A stretch of 64,000 nt of DNA, taken from positions 868,001 through 932,000 of the forward strand of contig NZ_CP052909.1 in assembly GCF_014295415.1 (NCBI RefSeq). Direction: 5' to 3'. Source of the DNA: Constantimarinum furrinae. Its GTDB lineage: Bacteria > Bacteroidota > Bacteroidia > Flavobacteriales > Flavobacteriaceae. The position numbers were made by a program, and so were the translations under genes. The notes beneath the pieces are model-generated. The model did no database searches and was not told the origin of the DNA. It was given only the letters and a program-made list of their open reading frames with translations. Of this stretch, positions 26,565 through 35,113 are shown piece by piece; position 1 is the first letter of the stretch; every line of letters starts with the position of its first letter.

Positions 26565-26795
26565 ATGGGTACTATTGCCACGCTCAAAAAAGGACAGCGA
26601 GCTATCATCACCGAATTCTCGGTAGATGTGATCCCTTTAAAATTACTTGAAATGGGCTGTCTGCCTGGTAATGAAGTCTCATTGGTACAAACCGCACCCT
26701 TTAAAGATCCTCTTTATATCAACATCAACGGAAGTCATCTCGCCATCAGAAAAGAAACAGCCGCACAAATTACTATTGAACTGATCATCAACTAA
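26565..26795 (+). CDS. feoA: FeoA ferrous iron transport accessory protein
   Basis: A 76-residue SH3-like protein. It has the FeoA pattern LKKGQRAIITEF, LLEMGCLPGNEVSLV, PLYININGSHLAIRKETA. FeoA is a small cytoplasmic partner of the FeoB Fe(II) permease. Its TAA overlaps the feoB ATG by one base, so the two are translationally coupled. The palindrome and promoter just upstream suggest iron-dependent repression. Confidence 0.96.
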   Translation: MGTIATLKKGQRAIITEFSVDVIPLKLLEMGCLPGNEVSLVQTAPFKDPLYININGSHLAIRKETAAQITIELIIN

Positions 26796-28894
26796 TGGCA
26801 AGACAAATTAACGTTGCGCTTATTGGAAATCCTAATACCGGGAAAACTTCGGTTTTTAACCGACTTACAGGGCTTAATCAAAAAGTTGGTAATTACCCCG
26901 GCATTACCGTAGAAAAAAAGCAAGGTATCTGCAAACTCCCAAGAGGAATAAAAGCTCATGTGCTCGATCTTCCGGGAACTTATAGTTTAAATGCCTCCTC
27001 CCTGGATGAAAATGTGGTGATCGAACTTTTGTTGAACAAAAACGACAAGGATTTTCCCGATGTAGCCGTAGTGGTTGCAGAAATTGAAAATTTGAAGCGT
27101 AACTTGTTATTGTTTACCCAGATCAAGGATCTCGGAATCCCAACTATTCTTGCCATTAACATGGCCGATAGAATGAAGAGAAAGGCAATTTCGCTGGATG
27201 TGGAAACTCTTGAAGAAGCACTGGAGACCAAAATTGTACTTATCAGTTCCAGAAAAAATGAAGGTTTTACCGAACTGAAAGAATACATCACCCATTACAC
27301 CCAACTTTCTACAAAGCCTTGTCTAAATGCTTCTTCTATCGCACCTGAATATTTTGACAGGCTTCGGAAGGCATTCCCCAAACAGGATCTGTATAAACTT
27401 TGGCTGGTAATTACTCAGGATGTAAACTTCGGAAAACTGGATAGACAAGAGCTGAAAGGAGTAGCGACATTTCAAACTGAATCTGTTAGCAATCTGAAAC
27501 GTCTTCAGCAAAAAGAGACCATTGCCCGGTATCAGTTCATCAACAATGCACTTAAAGAAACGCTTACTATCGATACTGCGAATGCGAAAGACCTTCGTGC
27601 ACGTTTAGACCGGATACTTACGCATAAGGTATGGGGTTATTTTATTTTCTTCGGAATTCTCTTATTGATATTTCAGGCCATATTCGACTGGAGTAGCTAC
27701 CCCATGGAGTTTATCGACAGTACCTTTGCTTCCTTAAGTGAATGGATGAAAAATTCACTCCCTCCGGGAGACTTTACCAACCTCATTGCAGAGGGAATAA
27801 TACCAGGACTGGGAGGTATAGTGATCTTTATTCCGCAAATCGCCTTTCTATTTCTCTTTATTTCCATTCTGGAGGAAAGCGGATATATGAGTAGAGTCGT
27901 TTTTTTAATGGACCGCGTAATGCGACGTTTTGGGTTAAGCGGAAAGAGCGTGGTTCCATTGGTATCTGGAACAGCTTGCGCTATCCCCGCCATTATGGCG
28001 ACACGTAATATTGAAAACTGGAAAGAACGACTAATAACCATACTAGTTACACCGTTTACCACTTGCTCTGCCCGACTTCCCGTTTATCTTATCATAATTG
28101 CTTTGGTGATTCCCGAGCAGCGCGTTTTAGGTATTTTTAGTTTGCAGGGAATTACTCTTATGTTCCTTTATTTATTGGGCTTTGGTGCAGCAATATTTTC
28201 AGCATATATTCTAGATAAGATCCTTAAAATTAGAAGCCGCACCTTCTTTGTGGTCGAAATGCCAAATTACAAGCTCCCTATGTTTAAAAATGTGGTGATC
28301 ACGGTAATCGAAAAAACAAAATCTTTCGTGGTAGGGGCAGGGAAGATCATATTGGCGATCTCTATCATCCTTTGGGTACTCGCATCTTATGGTCCGGGTG
28401 ATTTTAATGATGCCGAAGCCATTGTCACTCAACAAAGTACTTCAGAAAATATCAGCGAAGAGGAACTGGAAACCAGGATCGCATCCTTTAAACTCGAAAA
28501 CTCCTATATCGGTATTATCGGTAAAGGGATTGAACCAGCCGTACGACCCTTGGGTTACGACTGGAAGATCGGGATAGCGATCGTTAGTTCCTTTGCGGCA
28601 CGGGAGGTTTTTGTTGGGACCTTAGCCACCATTTACAGTGTGGGGAGTGAAGAAGAGGAAACTATCAAAAATCGAATGGCCGCTGAAGTAAATCCTGTTT
28701 TGGGAACACCATTGTTCAATTTTGCAAGCGGTGTATCCCTATTATTATTCTATGCCTTTGCCATGCAGTGTATGAGTACTCTGGCAATCGTAAAAAGAGA
28801 AACCAACAGTTGGAAATGGCCGCTTTGGCAACTATTTGCCATGTCGGCTATTGCATATATCGTCGCGCTGGCTGCCTATCAATTTTTAAAATAA
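26795..28894 (+). CDS. feoB: FeoB ferrous iron transporter
   Basis: A 699-residue inner-membrane Fe(II) permease. The N-terminal G-domain shows G1 at 11-18 (GNPNTGKT), switch VGNYPGITVEKK and G3 DLPGTY. A helical GDI-like segment follows, then about ten membrane helices from residue 280 with the two Gate motifs (RVVFLMDRVMRRFGLSGKS and FAAREVFVGTLATIYSVG). The length is slightly below the E. coli protein. It forms the feoA-feoB unit, with the 52-aa Cys-rich gene 13 bp downstream. Confidence 0.97.
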   Translation: MARQINVALIGNPNTGKTSVFNRLTGLNQKVGNYPGITVEKKQGICKLPRGIKAHVLDLPGTYSLNASSLDENVVIELLLNKNDKDFPDVAVVVAEIENLKRNLLLFTQIKDLGIPTILAINMADRMKRKAISLDVETLEEALETKIVLISSRKNEGFTELKEYITHYTQLSTKPCLNASSIAPEYFDRLRKAFPKQDLYKLWLVITQDVNFGKLDRQELKGVATFQTESVSNLKRLQQKETIARYQFINNALKETLTIDTANAKDLRARLDRILTHKVWGYFIFFGILLLIFQAIFDWSSYPMEFIDSTFASLSEWMKNSLPPGDFTNLIAEGIIPGLGGIVIFIPQIAFLFLFISILEESGYMSRVVFLMDRVMRRFGLSGKSVVPLVSGTACAIPAIMATRNIENWKERLITILVTPFTTCSARLPVYLIIIALVIPEQRVLGIFSLQGITLMFLYLLGFGAAIFSAYILDKILKIRSRTFFVVEMPNYKLPMFKNVVITVIEKTKSFVVGAGKIILAISIILWVLASYGPGDFNDAEAIVTQQSTSENISEEELETRIASFKLENSYIGIIGKGIEPAVRPLGYDWKIGIAIVSSFAAREVFVGTLATIYSVGSEEEETIKNRMAAEVNPVLGTPLFNFASGVSLLLFYAFAMQCMSTLAIVKRETNSWKWPLWQLFAMSAIAYIVALAAYQFLK

Positions 28895-29066: not shown

Positions 29067-29483
29067 TCATTCAGGTTTTTTTACGTTTACCACCAGACAG
29101 TAATCAAGTTTTTCTCCCGCCTCTTTCGGGTATGGTGTTACCGCAATACCTTCAATCATCATCTCAGAGGCCGTATAGATGGTTTTTTCAGCAGTCTCTT
29201 GCAGACGTACTTTTCCGAAGATCAATTCCTTAATACTAGAATCGTCATTCACTCGGCCAACTTCAACATGAATTCTTATTCTTCCTTCCCAGATACATTC
29301 TACCTGTGCAGGACAGCGTGAATCTTCCAAAACTTCAGAAAATTTTACGGCAACCCCATTTAACTCAACAGTTTCACCCAGAGCTATTTTTATCCCGATT
29401 TTTGGGACTTTAATAGTATCGTCCTGTGAAAAGGCCAATGCGCTTACAAAAAAGAAGAGCATTAAAAGTGTCTTGTTCATCAT
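29067..29483 (-). CDS. Secreted hypothetical protein with RCPxxxxCxWEG motif
   Basis: A 138-residue protein with a signal peptide ending at ALAFSQ. The mature part is beta-rich and carries the conserved segment DSRCPAQVECIWEGR, with two Cys likely forming a disulfide or binding a ligand. Similar short exported proteins are widespread in Bacteroidota, without an assigned role as far as I recognise. It is convergent with the FeoB-associated gene (stops adjacent) and lies downstream of the metal ABC operon on the same strand, so a role in metal physiology is possible but unproven. Confidence 0.72.
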   Translation of the reverse strand: MMNKTLLMLFFFVSALAFSQDDTIKVPKIGIKIALGETVELNGVAVKFSEVLEDSRCPAQVECIWEGRIRIHVEVGRVNDDSSIKELIFGKVRLQETAEKTIYTASEMMIEGIAVTPYPKEAGEKLDYCLVVNVKKPE

Positions 29484-29530: not shown

Positions 29531-30691
29531 CTAGCCGCGGAACAAAAAGAAATCATCTTTCATAGGTTCGATTTTATCATCCTTGTTGGTGATAATATAT
29601 TCTAAGGCCAGATCTGTAAATTCCTTTCCTTTATCGGTAAGAGACACTACTTCATTGTCAATGGTGATCATATTGTTCTTTAGTGCAAGATCCAGCACTG
29701 TTTTTGAACGCACCTTCTGCCAGTTAATGTGTTCGTTTAAATGATTTATATGACGTTCGTTTTCTTCGGAATGGTTATTTAAATGAAGGAGGAAAGTTAG
29801 TAATGAAACTTCGGTACGCTGCTGTTTTTGTCGGTACAGCACTGAAAGTAATCCCTTCCGTGGCGCAAACAAATAGACCATTAAAAAAACGAACCCGAGT
29901 ACGGTGGTCATCGAACCCGATATGGATGCATCCAACCAATGTGCAAACCAATATCCTCCTATAGCCGAAAATATCCCGAAACCAATGGATAACCACAGCA
30001 TTTTCTTCAGGTCGGATGTAAGTAAGTAGGCTGTTGCTGCAGGAGCGATCATTAGTGCGACTACTAGTATTGCTCCAACGGCATCAAAGGCACCAACTAC
30101 TGTTACCGAAGAAACCGACATGAGTCCGTAATGCATTACAACAGGAGAAATCCCCAATGCTGCCGACAAGCCCGAATCGAAGGTGCTCACCTTCAATTCC
30201 TTAAAAAACATAAACAACAACACCAGACTTATTAGCAAGATACCGCCCATGATCCATAAGGACTTGGGACCCATGTCCATGCCCATCATCAGCAGTCGGT
30301 CGAAAGGAGCAAAAGCCAATTCACCTAATAAAACCGCATCAACATCCAGATGCACATCGTTGGCATTTTTTGCGATCAGGATCACTCCAATACTAAATAG
30401 GGCAGGAAACACCAATCCAATAGCTGTATCTTCCTTCACCAAACCTGTTCTTTGAATAGCCTCGACCAGAACCACCGTGATCACACCGGTGATGGCCGCG
30501 AGTAAAATAAGCAATGGCGAATTAAGGTCGTGTGTGATAAAAAATCCGAGTACGATTCCGGGTAGGATCGAATGACTTATGGCATCACTTATAAGTGCCA
30601 TTTTCCGAAGTACCAAAAACACGCCCGGGATGGCACAGGCTACTGCAACTACCGCTGCGATGAGCTGTATTTCAAGTTGCGGACTAGTCAT
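29531..30691 (-). CDS. Metal ABC transporter permease with C-terminal winged-helix-like tail (second permease)
   Basis: A 386-residue protein. Residues 1-280 are a ZnuB/MntB-type permease with eight or nine hydrophobic segments and family blocks LRKMALISDAISHSILPG, GAFDAVGAILVVALMIAP and FLFAPRKGLL. Normal family members end there. About 100 more residues follow (HLNEHINWQKVRSKTVLDL, then NMITIDNEVVSLTDKGKEF), which read as a winged helix of the DtxR/MarR kind with wing and terminal helix. The tail should face the cytoplasm. It overlaps the other permease by 8 nt and is the last gene of the metal operon. Confidence 0.92.
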   Translation of the reverse strand: MTSPQLEIQLIAAVVAVACAIPGVFLVLRKMALISDAISHSILPGIVLGFFITHDLNSPLLILLAAITGVITVVLVEAIQRTGLVKEDTAIGLVFPALFSIGVILIAKNANDVHLDVDAVLLGELAFAPFDRLLMMGMDMGPKSLWIMGGILLISLVLLFMFFKELKVSTFDSGLSAALGISPVVMHYGLMSVSSVTVVGAFDAVGAILVVALMIAPAATAYLLTSDLKKMLWLSIGFGIFSAIGGYWFAHWLDASISGSMTTVLGFVFLMVYLFAPRKGLLSVLYRQKQQRTEVSLLTFLLHLNNHSEENERHINHLNEHINWQKVRSKTVLDLALKNNMITIDNEVVSLTDKGKEFTDLALEYIITNKDDKIEPMKDDFFLFRG

Positions 30692-31808
30692 GTGGTTTTT
30701 GTTGGTTATAAAGGTTCTCTGCTTCAGTAAAACCTTCAGCTGTCATGGACCACTGTTGCCCATCGATCGTAATCCATTCCTTATCTTCCAGCTTCTGAAG
30801 TGATCTTCTTGTAAATCCCTGAAAATTATTGAGTATTCGTATCGCATGAGGGTGTGATATATCCTCGTGATTCTTAGCGATGCCATACATAAACTGAAGC
30901 GTTTTTTTAAGCTGAAGGTCATTTCGGTTCTTTCGAAATCTGATCTCACGGAATAGCAGTCCGCGACCGGGTGAAAAAACAAATGAGAACAACACAAAGA
31001 CTGCCGCAACCAATACGATTACCGGCCCTGTAGACAGATTATTCTCACTGGCGCTTATGGCCGTGCCCACTACCCCCGAAAAAGCTCCGAAGATCGCGGC
31101 CAATACGATCATAGTACTTAATTTATTCGTCCACTGGCGGGCGGCGGCTGCCGGTGCTAATAGCATAGCGCTCATAAGCACCACCCCAACCGTCTGCAGA
31201 CCTAACACTATGGCTAATACTATAAAGAAAGTGATTAAAATATCGATAAAGCGTGTATTAAACCCAAGTGTTTTGGTATAATCGGCATCGAATAGTAATA
31301 TTTTGAATTCTTTCCAAAACAGCAATAGAATCACCAAACAAATTCCGGTAACGATCACCATTAATCGCACATCGCTTTCGACCAGTGTTGCGGCTTGACC
31401 AAACAAATATTTATCCAGCCCGGCCTGATTGGCGTTGGGTTGTTTCTGAATAAAAGTGAGTAACAACATCCCGAAACCAAAAAATAATGAGAGAATCAAG
31501 CCTAATGCAGTATCGCTTTTAAGATGAGTCTTTGAGGTCATTCCTCGTATCCAGAAGGTGCCAATTAATCCGCTAATTAAAGCACCAATCAACAATATAT
31601 TCGAATCCTTTGCTCCTGTAATTAGAAAGGCTAATGCAATCCCGGGTAAGGCAGCATGTGAAATGGCATCTCCTAATAGGCTTTGCTTCCGAAGTACGGC
31701 AAAACTTCCCAACATCCCGCAAATCGCTCCCAATACCGCCGTCCCCATAGTGATGGTACGCAGGGTGTAATCTGAAAACAGCTGTTCGAAATATTCGACT
31801 AAGGACAT
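30684..31808 (-). CDS. Metal ABC transporter permease with C-terminal winged-helix-like tail (first permease)
   Basis: A 374-residue permease paralogous to the next gene. The membrane part (1-280) has LRKQSLLGDAISHAALPGIA, LQTVGVVLMSAMLLAPAAAARQW and VFSPGRGLL. The extension (280-374) contains LQFMYGIAKNHED, then GFTRRSLQKLEDKEWI and WSMTAEGFTEAENL, again like a recognition helix plus wing. MntB/ZnuB permeases of about 280 residues lack this. It resembles the chlamydial YtgCR permease-repressor fusion in principle. A 127-bp gap with a period-7 repeat separates it from the ATPase gene. Confidence 0.92.
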   Translation of the reverse strand: MSLVEYFEQLFSDYTLRTITMGTAVLGAICGMLGSFAVLRKQSLLGDAISHAALPGIALAFLITGAKDSNILLIGALISGLIGTFWIRGMTSKTHLKSDTALGLILSLFFGFGMLLLTFIQKQPNANQAGLDKYLFGQAATLVESDVRLMVIVTGICLVILLLFWKEFKILLFDADYTKTLGFNTRFIDILITFFIVLAIVLGLQTVGVVLMSAMLLAPAAAARQWTNKLSTMIVLAAIFGAFSGVVGTAISASENNLSTGPVIVLVAAVFVLFSFVFSPGRGLLFREIRFRKNRNDLQLKKTLQFMYGIAKNHEDISHPHAIRILNNFQGFTRRSLQKLEDKEWITIDGQQWSMTAEGFTEAENLYNQQKPHD

Positions 31809-31872
31809 CGTTTTTCTATTATCGATTTTTTTGTTTAAGAACTCAGAAGTTTACATCAAATTTCACAAATGA

Positions 31873-31928
31873 ACCTCTACCTTCGCTCTTGAGTCTTCAA
31901 TCTTCCGCCTGCTGACTTCCGACTTCCA
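31873..31928. repeat. Degenerate period-7 tandem repeat in an operon gap
   Basis: Eight successive 7-nt units fit the stretch (acctcta, ccttcgc, tcttgag, tcttcaa, tcttccg, cctgctg, acttccg, acttcca), with a loose consensus nCTTCnn. It fills part of the only sizeable gap inside an otherwise tightly packed metal-uptake operon. It is too short and too variable for a CRISPR. A slipped-strand microsatellite or purine-rich mRNA tract (minus strand) is possible. Confidence 0.5.
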
Positions 31929-31935
31929 ACATTTA

Positions 31936-32676
31936 TCATTTATTAATCGCGACCTTATAATTAATCCCATAGGTTTTCGTAAGGTTGTCGTCATTAAAGA
32001 TCTCTTTAACCGGTCCGGTGGCAATCTTTTTGACGTTCAGGAAAGTAACCCAGTCAAAATATTCGGGCACGGTTTGTAGGTCATGATGGACTACAACTAC
32101 TGTTTTTCCGGCTTTTCTAAGTTCCTTTAAAATGTTGATGATGGCAATTTCAGTAGTGGCATCCACCCCTTGAAACGGTTCATCCATAAAGTATATAGAT
32201 GCATTTTGAACCAGCGCTCGCGCCAGGAAGACCCGTTGTTGCTGGCCCCCGCTCAACTGACTTATTTGACGATTCTTAAATGACAGCATCCCTACTTTTT
32301 CGAGAGCTTCGAGGGAGGCCTTCTTTTCCTTTTGCCCCGGTCGCTTTATCCATCCAAGATTTCCATAGGTTCCCATCATCACAACATCCAGTGCGGTGGT
32401 TGGGAAATCCCAGTCTACGCTACCTTTTTGAGGCACATAGCCTACCAGTTTCCGCTGCTTGTCGTACGGTTTGTCGTAGATCGCTACACTACCGGCTATT
32501 GGTTTAATGATCCCTAATATTGCTTTTATCAAGGTGGATTTTCCCGCACCGTTTGGCCCCACTATTGCCATTAATACACCTTCCGGAACCGTGAGATCTA
32601 TATCCCACAGCACTGGCTTATAGTTATACGCAACCGTAAGATCATCTACCTGTATGGCATTTTTTGTGGTGGTCAT
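31936..32676 (-). CDS. Metal ABC transporter ATP-binding protein
   Basis: A 246-residue ABC ATPase of the ZnuC/MntA type. It has Walker [10 protein letters not shown] at 40-48, Q-loop [14 protein letters not shown], signature LSGGQQQR near 141, Walker [13 protein letters not shown], and the switch His in [10 protein letters not shown]. The WDFPTT wording after the Q-loop is common in manganese/iron importers. The start overlaps the binding-protein stop by one base, showing tight coupling. Confidence 0.96.
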
Positions 32677-33584
32677 TATTTTAATTCGTTAACTATGGTA
32701 TTTACGTTGTACCGGAACATCCCCAAATAAGTACCTTCTACAGTATCCGGATCTCCCAGTGCATCACTATACAATGATCCTCCAATTTTAACTTCATGTC
32801 CCTTCGACAGTACCGCCGCTTGTAATGCTTCTATAGTCCGTCTGGGAACCGAACTCTCAATAAAGATAGCCTTTACATCCTTTTCTATGATAAATTGCGA
32901 CAATCGCTGTACGTCCTGAACACCGGCTTCAGTGGCAGTGGATAAACCCTGTAGGCCAACAACTTCAAAGTCATAAGCCTTTCCGAAGTAATTAAACGCA
33001 TCATGCGCTGTAACCAGAATTCTCTTTTCCTTCGGAAGAGTTTCAATGGTAGCCTTTACTTCAGTTTCCAGAGCTTCTAATTTTTGCAAATAGGTTTCCT
33101 TATTCTTGATATAAAACTCGGCATTTGTCGGATCATTTTCAGCTAAAACCTCAGCAACCCGTTCGGCAAATTGCTTAAAATAAGAAATATCGAACCAAAC
33201 ATGCGGATCGAAACTCGATGCAAAATATTCTGAACCTATAAGGTTACTTTTATCAAGAGCTTCGGCCAGTGGCACCTGAATTTTTTCCTGTGATTCCATC
33301 TTTTCAAAGACTTCTACCAGCTTTCCTTCCAAATGGAGTCCGTTGTAGATGATAATGTTTGCTTGATACAATTTAGACACATCCCCCTCGCTGGCCTTGT
33401 ACAGGTGTGGATCGACCCCTGCCCCCATTAATCCCTCAACATCGATAAGGTTACCTCCTATATTTTTCACAAGATCGGTGATCATGGTAGTAGTGGTCAC
33501 GACCTTAAGTCTGTTTGATTCATTTTCAGGATTCTTACATCCGAAAAGGCTAACTGCAATAACGACAATAAGGATCTTCTTCAT
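32676..33584 (-). CDS. Metal-binding ABC substrate-binding lipoprotein (cluster A-1)
   Basis: A 302-residue lipoprotein with Cys16 after SLFG. It belongs to the TroA/MntC/ZnuA family. Metal ligands are expected in [27 protein letters not shown] (Glu) and [10 protein letters not shown] (Asp). The His-His-Glu-Asp set resembles Mn/Fe-type proteins more than Zn-type proteins, and there is no His-rich loop. The substrate is therefore probably manganese or iron, but zinc cannot be excluded. It sits 12 bp after the outer-membrane gene. Confidence 0.93.
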
Positions 33585-33607: not shown

Positions 33608-34396
33608 TTATTTCGGAATTCTAAAACTAACTCCAGCACTTAATAATATGTCTTGTCCTTCAGTAAAACTTCTGCCTATGGTAGCATCCAATTGCAGGTT
33701 CGGCTGAAGCAGATAAGTGAACCCGGCATCCCAAAAATGATTTGCACGACTGTCTTCGGGCAGATCACCATATACTTCGGCGTAAACACCAAATTTATCA
33801 GTAATGCTATACCCATACACCAGCGTATACACATAAGCAGCTTCGGGAGAATCATCTCCCCATTGTGCTCCAAGATTGTACGCAATGCTGGAATTTTCAC
33901 TCACCGTATGCGCAAAAGAAAACCTGAAATCCACAGCTGTAGTTTCAGGACGGTAGTCTGAAGCCGCCGTAAACGGAAACATAAAATGACCCAGCAATCC
34001 GATCTCGGGCATCCAGCCTTTTTCTTCAGTGATCTCTACTTTCATACCTGCCAGCAACGGCGACATACCGCTTAACACATTTGGTTGTTCCAATCCATTC
34101 GCCGTGAATGTAACCTCTTCAAAATTCCAGCCGAGTCGCAGTTCAAAATTCTCAAGCAGTCCGTAGCGCAGTAGAGTCGTATTATAGACGAAGGTTTCAG
34201 TTTGAAGGGAATTCTCTTTAAAAGATTCGTAAAAAGCTCCTGTTTCTACTTGAAAATATCCTTTGGGGACCGTATTTGGTGATTCAGTGGCATCGGGTCG
34301 GTCTGTAATGAGTTCAGGGATAGATGCTTCGTTTTGAGCACTTATTCCGAAGGAAATTCCGAAGCATAAAACGTATAACGTTCTTTTATATATCAT
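33608..34396 (-). CDS. Outer-membrane transporter-like beta-barrel protein (PF13557-like)
   Basis: About 262 residues from ATG 34396. The signal peptide runs MIYKRTLYVLCFGISFGISAQ. The mature protein begins ITDRPDATESPNTVPKGYFQVETG, the typical opening of the MetA-pathway/transporter barrel family, and continues as amphipathic strands ending VSFRIPK. ATG 34396 lies one base past the dtxR stop. An upstream in-frame start would run into dtxR. The position between the regulator and binding-protein genes suggests a metal-specific outer-membrane channel, an inference from context. Confidence 0.85.
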   Translation of the reverse strand: MIYKRTLYVLCFGISFGISAQNEASIPELITDRPDATESPNTVPKGYFQVETGAFYESFKENSLQTETFVYNTTLLRYGLLENFELRLGWNFEEVTFTANGLEQPNVLSGMSPLLAGMKVEITEEKGWMPEIGLLGHFMFPFTAASDYRPETTAVDFRFSFAHTVSENSSIAYNLGAQWGDDSPEAAYVYTLVYGYSITDKFGVYAEVYGDLPEDSRANHFWDAGFTYLLQPNLQLDATIGRSFTEGQDILLSAGVSFRIPK

Positions 34397-34397
34397 T

Positions 34398-35054
34398 TTA
34401 GTTGGTTTGTACATATAGGTTTTCTGCAATTTTTTGTGAGATAAAGAATTGGTCGCTTCCAACCTGAATGATCATAGAACTATCAAAAAACTCCTTCCCA
34501 AGTACTTTGATCTTTGTGCCGATACTTATTTTTCTTTTGTCGAGATATTGTAAAAATTCTACGCTGGACTCCTTTACGCCAACGCAGACACCTTGCTGAT
34601 TCTTATTACATTCAGACAACAACTTTTTCTCTGTTCTTTTTACATTTCCGTGTTTATCGGGAATCGGATCCCCATGGGGATCGAAATCGGGGTGACCCAA
34701 ATATTTATCCAGACGCCTTACGAGTTCTTCACTTTGAACATGTTCGAGTTGTTCTGCGATCTCATGTACCTCATCCCAGTGAAAATTGAGCTTTTCTACA
34801 AGAAATACTTCCCACAGACGATGTTTTCTTATAACGTTTGCCGCTATCTTTCTACCGCTTGGGGTCAATAAGGTTCCTTTATACTTCTTATAAGAAAGCA
34901 CTTCTTTATCAGCTAATTTTTGTACCATATCGGTTACCGAAGACGGTTTTGTATCCATCCGATCTGCAATGGCATTAGTACTGACCTCCCCCTGAATTTC
35001 CTGCTCCAGATGGTAGATCGCTTTTAGGTAATTTTCTTCTGCTAATGAAAACAT
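34398..35054 (-). CDS. DtxR/MntR-family metal-dependent transcriptional regulator
   Basis: A 218-residue regulator. The N-terminal winged helix (LAEENYLKAIYHL, TNAIADRMDTKPSSVTDMVQKL) contacts DNA. The dimerisation domain with metal ligands follows (RKHRLWEVFLVEKL, AEQLEHVQSEELVRRLD, HPDFDPHGDPIP), and a C-terminal SH3-like FeoA domain begins about 150. It is the first gene of the metal operon and probably represses it when Mn or Fe is bound. A -7 box lies only 4 nt before its ATG and a TTTAG/CTAAA palindrome is further upstream. Confidence 0.95.
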   Translation of the reverse strand: MFSLAEENYLKAIYHLEQEIQGEVSTNAIADRMDTKPSSVTDMVQKLADKEVLSYKKYKGTLLTPSGRKIAANVIRKHRLWEVFLVEKLNFHWDEVHEIAEQLEHVQSEELVRRLDKYLGHPDFDPHGDPIPDKHGNVKRTEKKLLSECNKNQQGVCVGVKESSVEFLQYLDKRKISIGTKIKVLGKEFFDSSMIIQVGSDQFFISQKIAENLYVQTN

Positions 35055-35097: not shown

Positions 35098-35113
35098 TTT
35101 AGCCTTATCTAAA
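35098..35113. promoter_or_regulatory. Candidate palindromic operator upstream of dtxR
   Basis: TTTAG and CTAAA are perfect inverted 5-bp arms around CCTTAT. The site lies about 32 bp upstream of the -7 element of the dtxR operon. It could be bound by the encoded regulator (autoregulation). The arms match those of the hemA-region palindrome, but the spacing differs by one base. Confidence 0.35.

Follow-up and report, generated by a model that had tools for sequence, protein, structure and literature searches.

Why do both permeases of a bacterial metal importer run on past the usual end of their family, and what might the additional residues do? The question is raised by a stretch of 64,000 nucleotides (nt) from the 2.99 Mb genome of Constantimarinum furrinae (positions 868,001 to 932,000 of contig NZ_CP052909.1), here referred to as the window. 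In it, two tandem genes encode ATP-binding cassette (ABC) permeases, permease 1 and permease 2, each with a C-terminal tail, and a separate gene encodes a repressor of the DtxR/MntR type. An earlier note on this DNA, the initial annotation, compared the tailed permeases to the chlamydial YtgCR protein and suggested that they could couple transport to gene control or to regulation at the membrane. The answer that we tentatively favour is that the tails are metal-feedback modules of the importer, made of DtxR-derived winged helices that no longer read DNA; through them, the importer may sense metal and regulate its own activity.

Extent and fold of the tails

The PF00950 scores of both permeases exceed the curated cut-off, placing them in the ABC-3 family (cluster A-I). 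The PF00950 match stops at residue 278 of permease 1 and residue 275 of permease 2, and the solved manganese ABC permease 7kyp_B (290 amino acids, aa) aligns to residue 285 and residue 284 at most, respectively. Because both alignments end well before the proteins do, the approximately 90 to 106 extra residues per permease are real. The extension of about 100 residues reported in the initial annotation was therefore confirmed, at 94 and 106 residues when counted from residue 281. In close relatives, the identity of the tail to that of the window was 0.67 for permease 1 (81 rows including the window) and 0.81 for permease 2 (78 rows), compared to 0.87 and 0.84 for the membrane parts. The 80 close relatives, the best 80 of 270, came in part from searches with tail peptides and so speak for conservation but not for prevalence. 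A chance extension or a frameshift was ruled out as the origin of the tails, which are kept in 78 to 81 rows.

AlphaFold2 was run from residue 278 on alignments of the tails only, with the window and close relatives represented by 76 rows for permease 1 and 71 rows for permease 2. For permease 2, it predicted a canonical winged helix (H-H-H-E-E-H, where H is a helix and E a strand), with a mean predicted local distance difference test (pLDDT) score of 80.8. For permease 1, the model has a long first helix (H1), an undefined second helix (H2), then H3, a hairpin and H4, with a mean pLDDT of 78.3 that is about 65 around H2. Both models, which start at residue 278, show a single long helix beginning at residue 279 or 280 and no flexible linker. 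The structures listed by Foldseek and VIA-align were mostly winged-helix proteins, of the MarR, PadR, CggR, CRP and DtxR kinds, together with some unrelated ones. The DtxR-like 2h09 of Escherichia coli, which we take to be MntR, was in both VIA lists (Z 8.7, root-mean-square deviation (rmsd) 3.8 over 87; Z 7.6, rmsd 3.4 over 85). Pfam searches with single tails returned only weak names below threshold, which included winged-helix families as well as unrelated ones, several of each. Likewise, a PDB sequence search with tail profiles gave only weak matches, among them some DtxR-type regulators and ZitR but also ribosomal proteins S10 and S19, with an S19 the best. The models and the fold lists, with DtxR and MarR kinds among the matches, agree with the winged-helix-like character first proposed, and the predicted fold is clear for permease 2 but less sure for permease 1, where H2 is undefined.

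Ancestry and distribution of the tails

PF00950 was sought in 247 Bacteroidota genomes, and 40 stretches were hand-picked from the matches, with preference given to tandem genes and long frames. Two architectures were found. In class A (long), permease 1 carries a tail of 150-218 residues that includes the DtxR N-domain and metal domain (PF02742 in all 12 tails scanned, of 14), and permease 2, where present, is tailless. In class B, the form found in the window, both permeases have short tails. Among stretches containing both permeases, 19 were short/short, 11 were long/none and none was mixed. The remainder comprised three long-tailed permeases with no partner in the stretch and seven others (singles, other permeases and contig ends). 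Two of the three come from genomes with a single PF00950 match each (G037 and G064), and the tailless partner of the third (G204) is in L133. When trees were built from the membrane parts only, class A and class B fell on opposite sides of a starred branch for both permease 1 (branch values 99/99, 42 rows) and permease 2 (100/100, 40 rows). Class A is a sister clade of the permeases of the window, with a YtgCR-like fusion on permease 1. Two class A proteins (L117:3307-4791 and L122:3262-4752), from genomes with one PF00950 match each, have 218-residue tails that run past the metal domain and perhaps include an FeoA-like end.

Profile comparison using hhalign matched the class B tails to the class A fusion tails at 98 % for permease 1 and 93 % for permease 2. 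As both profiles include the permease's own end, the juxtamembrane part was trimmed. The match persisted (97 % and 91 %, respectively), ruling out that it was due solely to the shared juxtamembrane segment, and the kinship with permease-DtxR (YtgCR-like) fusions implied by the initial annotation stands. When distant or pooled rows were used, the permease-1 tails matched standalone DtxR profiles at 88-91 %, and the profiles of the two tails matched each other at 82-89 %. Genome searches with the tail profiles give independent support for DtxR ancestry. Elsewhere in the phylum, the weak matches to the permease-1-tail profile were of two kinds. Ten were long-fusion frames, 8 of which were opened; the others, frames of 215-238 aa, came from 22 genomes, and the three opened were all ordinary DtxRs. 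Of 10 weak matches to the permease-2-tail profile, 7 were DtxR-FeoA proteins (frames of 328-350 aa; 4 opened, 3 assigned by position). On these sequence comparisons, descent from DtxR is firm for the permease-1 tail and likely for the permease-2 tail. An independent MarR/PadR origin was rejected for the permease-1 tail and is considered less likely for the permease-2 tail; such proteins are numerous in the fold lists but the sequence profiles point to DtxR.

In a search of 395 genomes, strong tail matches (E below 1e-20) were found in 40 genomes for permease 1 and in 40 for permease 2, with both in 39, i.e. the short tails are paired in 39 of the 41 genomes with any strong tail match. The arrangement had been described as unusual. 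This is only partly right, as tandem tailed permeases are the usual form within the clade of the window. Among individual loci, two in metagenome or uncultured assemblies depart from this form: L036 has no permease 2 downstream of permease 1 (after 6116), and in L076 (6118-7300) the permease-2 tail is in another frame. The L043 stretch ends within permease 2.

DNA reading, putative metal ligands and the possible role of the tails

A recognition-helix signature (helix 3) was defined here from 50 standalone DtxR rows of the phylum (35 taken from the fetched stretches, the other 15 from the 49 rows of close relatives) after alignment to the DtxR model. It is present in 42 of the 50, and the Y, Y and G of the wing (motif Y..[YH].G) are found in 94-100 %. 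The helix-3 signature was found in none of 34 permease-1 and 35 permease-2 short tails clade-wide and none of those of the close relatives (0/81 and 0/78), and also in none of 14 class A domains or 18 membrane-anchored DtxRs (see below). The wing motif was found in no class B tail in the clade-wide alignments. As the signature was derived from the standalone group, this result is a contrast and not an independent test. The metal domain of the membrane-anchored and class A forms has H78, E82, H97, E104, H105 and D125-P-H127 at 100 % and E101 at 92-100 %. Neither permease of the window has this metal/dimerisation domain (PF02742), and the only match found in a search of the whole genome is the separate DtxR. 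Helix 3 varies in the permease-1 tail (mean conservation 0.69, compared to a domain mean of 0.74), while the values for DtxR are 0.90 and 0.79. Past the juxtamembrane part, the tail cores have a mean charge of +0.5 for permease 1 and -3.7 for permease 2 (40 close relatives each), and the mean for the DtxR N-domain is +2.0. The tails seem to have lost DNA reading. The suggested coupling of transport to gene control by the tails themselves is not supported, as the metal/dimerisation domain, the helix-3 signature and the wing motif are all absent. We prefer the alternative of regulation at the membrane, in the sense that the tails may regulate the transporter.

Both tails include a histidine cluster (Table 1). 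The columns that are invariant clade-wide are R, G, H314, H321, L and W for permease 1 (34/34) and Q, H303, H307, H321, W324 and G for permease 2 (35/35). In close relatives, H314, H319 and H321 are found in 81/81 and H303, H307, H317, H321 and W324 in 78/78. The five histidine positions resemble ligands rather than packing residues, because they are invariant in alignments whose distant rows are just 15-35 % identical to the window. The histidine fraction is 0.046-0.053 in the tails and 0.008-0.015 in the rest of the permeases, and in the AlphaFold2 models the tail histidines fall where H1 ends and within or ahead of H2. Among the 14 class A tails, histidine does not reach three rows in any column of the H1-H2 region, where five rows have stray histidines. 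We infer that the histidines form a metal site that replaces the DtxR metal domain, and their pattern is as expected of such a site.

In the mechanism that we propose, an ancestral DtxR-type repressor would have become fused to a permease, lost its ability to read DNA and come to act on the importer. Each tail appears to join the last membrane helix directly, which would couple the two rigidly, and its H1-H2 histidine cluster would stand in for the lost DtxR metal domain. At high cytosolic levels, the metal (Mn2+, Fe2+ or Zn2+) would bind the tail histidines, and the metal-bound tails would pair with each other or with the ATPases, holding the transport cycle (feedback or trans-inhibition). 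The separate DtxR would give slower transcriptional control from a TTTAG-N6-CTAAA box. Metal binding, tail pairing, rigid coupling and the effect on transport are all putative steps.

Several observations weigh against this interpretation. The fold scores are modest: Foldseek gave no match at E 0.001 or better for either tail, and the best VIA Z scores, 9.2 for permease 2 and 8.2 for permease 1, are near the background stated for the tool. As single scores are modest, the fold claim draws on the consistency of the lists and on the sequence evidence. Matches of the permease-2 tails to profiles of standalone DtxRs do not exceed 33 %, and the flavobacterial tail rows alone give weak matches (29 % and 11 %); for these reasons, DtxR descent is graded as firm for the first tail but likely for the second. 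Helix 3 of the permease-2 tail is well conserved (0.88, compared to a domain mean of 0.83), which could equally be explained by a DNA-binding or a protein-binding role and also argues against simple decay. With the juxtamembrane part counted in, the whole permease-1 tail is basic (mean charge +5.1 to +5.9), as is often the case for DNA-binding proteins, although contact with membrane lipids is another explanation. One of the two tails is missing in two genomes, from permease 1 in G388 and from permease 2 in G332. The nearness of the tail histidines to one another is read from secondary structure, and pure histidine sites suit Zn2+ better than Mn2+. Finally, the trans-inhibition domains described for MetNI and ModBC are on the ATPase and have other folds (PMC10710835), whereas the extra domains in the window are on the permeases. 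The ATPase of the window has no accessory sensor domain detectable from its coverage by Pfam and ABC-ATPase models (the Pfam ABC match stops at residue 168 of 246, and ABC-ATPase models extend to residue 244).

Three other explanations were considered. The tails could form a structural or assembly module that docks on the ATPases or on the other tail and keeps the heteromeric importer assembled without any sensing role; the histidines would then stabilize the fold or a contact. Pairing of the tails in nearly all genomes that have them and the conserved W, L, T and G core residues would fit such a module. However, we consider it unlikely, as many ABC-3 permeases of the phylum, among the matches listed, have frames of 266-323 aa, too short for a tail, and a purely structural role does not readily account for five histidine positions kept in every row of two alignments that include such divergent members. 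It is also improbable that the tails act as a membrane tether that holds soluble DtxR off the DNA according to the state of transport, and so links flux to transcription. DtxR-derived tails could pair with DtxR, and the operon of the window begins with dtxR, a gene that lies upstream of the operon in many relatives. However, the dimerisation domain of DtxR is missing from the tails and, in several related stretches (e.g. L058, L060 and L081), both tails are kept although the DtxR gene found there is far away, highly divergent or on the opposite strand. A YtgCR-like regulator, with tails that bind operator DNA either after cleavage or at the membrane, was considered first, and the winged-helix fold, the conserved permease-2 helix 3 and accounts of chlamydial YtgR as a DNA-binding protein cleaved from YtgC (PMC5599777, PMC7755916) favour it, but it was lowered to very improbable because the signature and the metal domain are missing and the operon already has a separate DtxR, preceded by a conserved box, and because the tails also lack the wing motif, have near-neutral to acidic cores unlike DtxR N-domains and contain no predicted linker.

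Operon context and related systems

The operon is on the minus strand in the order dtxR, PF13557 gene, binding lipoprotein gene, ATPase gene, permease 1 and permease 2 (Table 1), so that, as first noted, the tailed permeases are downstream of a separate DtxR gene. The apparent metal ligands of the binding protein (H, H, E and D) are presumably of the Mn/Fe kind. The PF13557 gene, for which a probable ATG start at 34396 was picked from the sequence, recurs at the same place in the operon of many relatives, and its product is a candidate outer-membrane metal channel. A gap of 127 bases (31809-31935) separates the ATPase and permease 1 genes in the window; these genes touch in several relatives, e.g. 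L005. Beyond the operon, a FeoB gene on the plus strand (26795-28894) stops roughly 640 bases short of where the permease operon ends, and a small gene (29067-29483) lies between them. Permease 2 ends in FFLFRG, six residues that do not vary across 71 close-relative rows and are absent from distant relatives, and the C-terminal peptide is perhaps a contact peptide or a turnover signal.

Table 1. Features of the permease operon, with positions numbered from the first base of the window
Feature	Position	Strand	Evidence and remarks
Permease 1, ABC-3 family, 374 aa	30684..31808	-	PF00950 E 4.7e-73, residues 14-278; 7kyp_B match
Permease 2, ABC-3 family, 386 aa	29531..30691	-	PF00950 E 1.2e-51, residues 10-275; 7kyp_B match
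Importer ATPase, 246 aa	31936..32676	-	PF00005; NCBIfam manganese/iron ATP-binding models below cut-off
Substrate-binding lipoprotein, ZnuA/TroA-like	32676..33584	-	PF01297 E 3e-75
Outer-membrane protein-like gene, between dtxR and binding protein	33608..34396	-	PF13557 E 4.4e-29
DtxR/MntR-type repressor, separate, C-terminal FeoA domain	34398..35054	-	PF01325, PF02742, PF04023
Palindrome TTTAG-N6-CTAAA, likely DtxR operator	35098..35113	.	Starts 44 nt upstream of dtxR start codon
Permease-1 tail, residues 281-374 (94 residues), predicted winged-helix-like, DtxR-derived	30687..30968	-	AlphaFold2, fold search, hhalign
Permease-1 tail histidine segment: H314 (30867-30869), H319 (30852-30854), H321 (30846-30848)	30846..30869	-	Alignments
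Permease-2 tail, residues 281-386 (106 residues), predicted winged helix	29534..29851	-	AlphaFold2, fold search, hhalign
HxxxH...HxxxHxxW of permease-2 tail: H303, H307, H317, H321, W324	29720..29785	-	Alignments
KDDFFLFRG, permease-2 C-terminus	29534..29560	-	71-row alignment; low AlphaFold2 confidence

Of 41 related loci, defined by a dtxR on the operon strand with more than 60 % identity, 38 have the TTTAG-N6-CTAAA box no more than 200 nt upstream of this gene, mostly 52-60 nt from the start. These 38 are among only 39 copies in the 435,597 bases of the 41 loci. With the window included, the box is present in 39/42 and, after letter shuffling, in 0/42. A copy arose in 15 of 100 dinucleotide shuffles of the window, and the bare pattern has 8 sites in this genome, compared to 10 for a reversed control pattern. 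As the bare pattern is unspecific, it is the fixed place across species that constitutes the evidence for the box, and the separate DtxR probably binds it.

A third form of tethered DtxR was found in 30 of the 247 genomes (E below 1e-80). These DtxR-FeoA proteins of approximately 340 aa have one N-terminal hydrophobic segment (judged by eye), followed by a DtxR N-domain, the metal domain and FeoA domains (PF02742 and PF04023 in 6/6 scanned). In all 16 loci opened of the 30 (L229-L244, e.g. L232:4004-8041 and L238:5627-9489), the gene order is standalone DtxR, DtxR-FeoA, FeoB G part (254-277 aa) and FeoB membrane part (471-518 aa). Given these 16 FeoB loci, two unrelated metal importers are accompanied by a tethered DtxR with its metal core intact and its recognition helix altered. 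It is conceivable, though rather speculative, that DtxRs of Bacteroidota became transporter-resident metal valves that do not read DNA and take three forms, namely full-length on an ABC permease, membrane-anchored as DtxR-FeoA with a split FeoB, and, in the clade of the window, reduced to paired histidine-bearing winged helices on both permeases. Import would be switched off directly, with the genes left under a separate DtxR.

The precedent studied by experiment is chlamydial YtgCR, described as an ABC-type metal permease whose C-terminal DtxR-related domain is cleaved off and binds DNA (PMC7755916, PMC5599777); orthologues of the fusion have been reported in 11 phyla (PMC5599777). The system of the window, compared here to YtgCR as described in these papers, differs in having tails on both permeases, no metal/dimerisation domain, no DNA-reading signature, a separate DtxR and invariant histidines inside the winged helix. 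The class A long fusions (e.g. L119, L124 and L125) share with it the operon type, a homologous permease-1 tail and, in most opened stretches, a separate DtxR, but they have Fe_dep_repr_C on permease 1 only, a tailless permease 2 and no conserved H1-H2 histidine column. In Treponema, there are also two metal permeases and a separate DtxR-like TroR; from the reported lengths (TroD, 366/367 aa; TroC, 304/298 aa; PMC2628430), TroD may have a tail but TroC has no room for one. The tails share ancestry and fold with DtxR/MntR repressors but not the metal/dimerisation domain or the recognition-helix signature.

Fused regulatory domains are described as a common theme in transporter control, with metal transport rich in examples, and in MetNI and ModBC cytosolic accessory domains sense the substrate and stop transport (PMC10710835). 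By analogy, we propose that the tails of the window work more like trans-inhibition of the MetNI/ModBC type, while descending from something YtgCR-like. Neither paired short tails nor membrane-anchored DtxR-FeoA proteins were found described in the open-access literature searched, which omits much. Permease-DtxR fusions are already known, and what is new is the paired, histidine-bearing tails with no metal domain. A metal core that is kept or replaced by histidines, the apparent loss of DNA reading and a normal DtxR alongside together suggest a use opposite to that of YtgCR, namely sensing at the importer. If this is true, this kind of importer gains a feedback mechanism.

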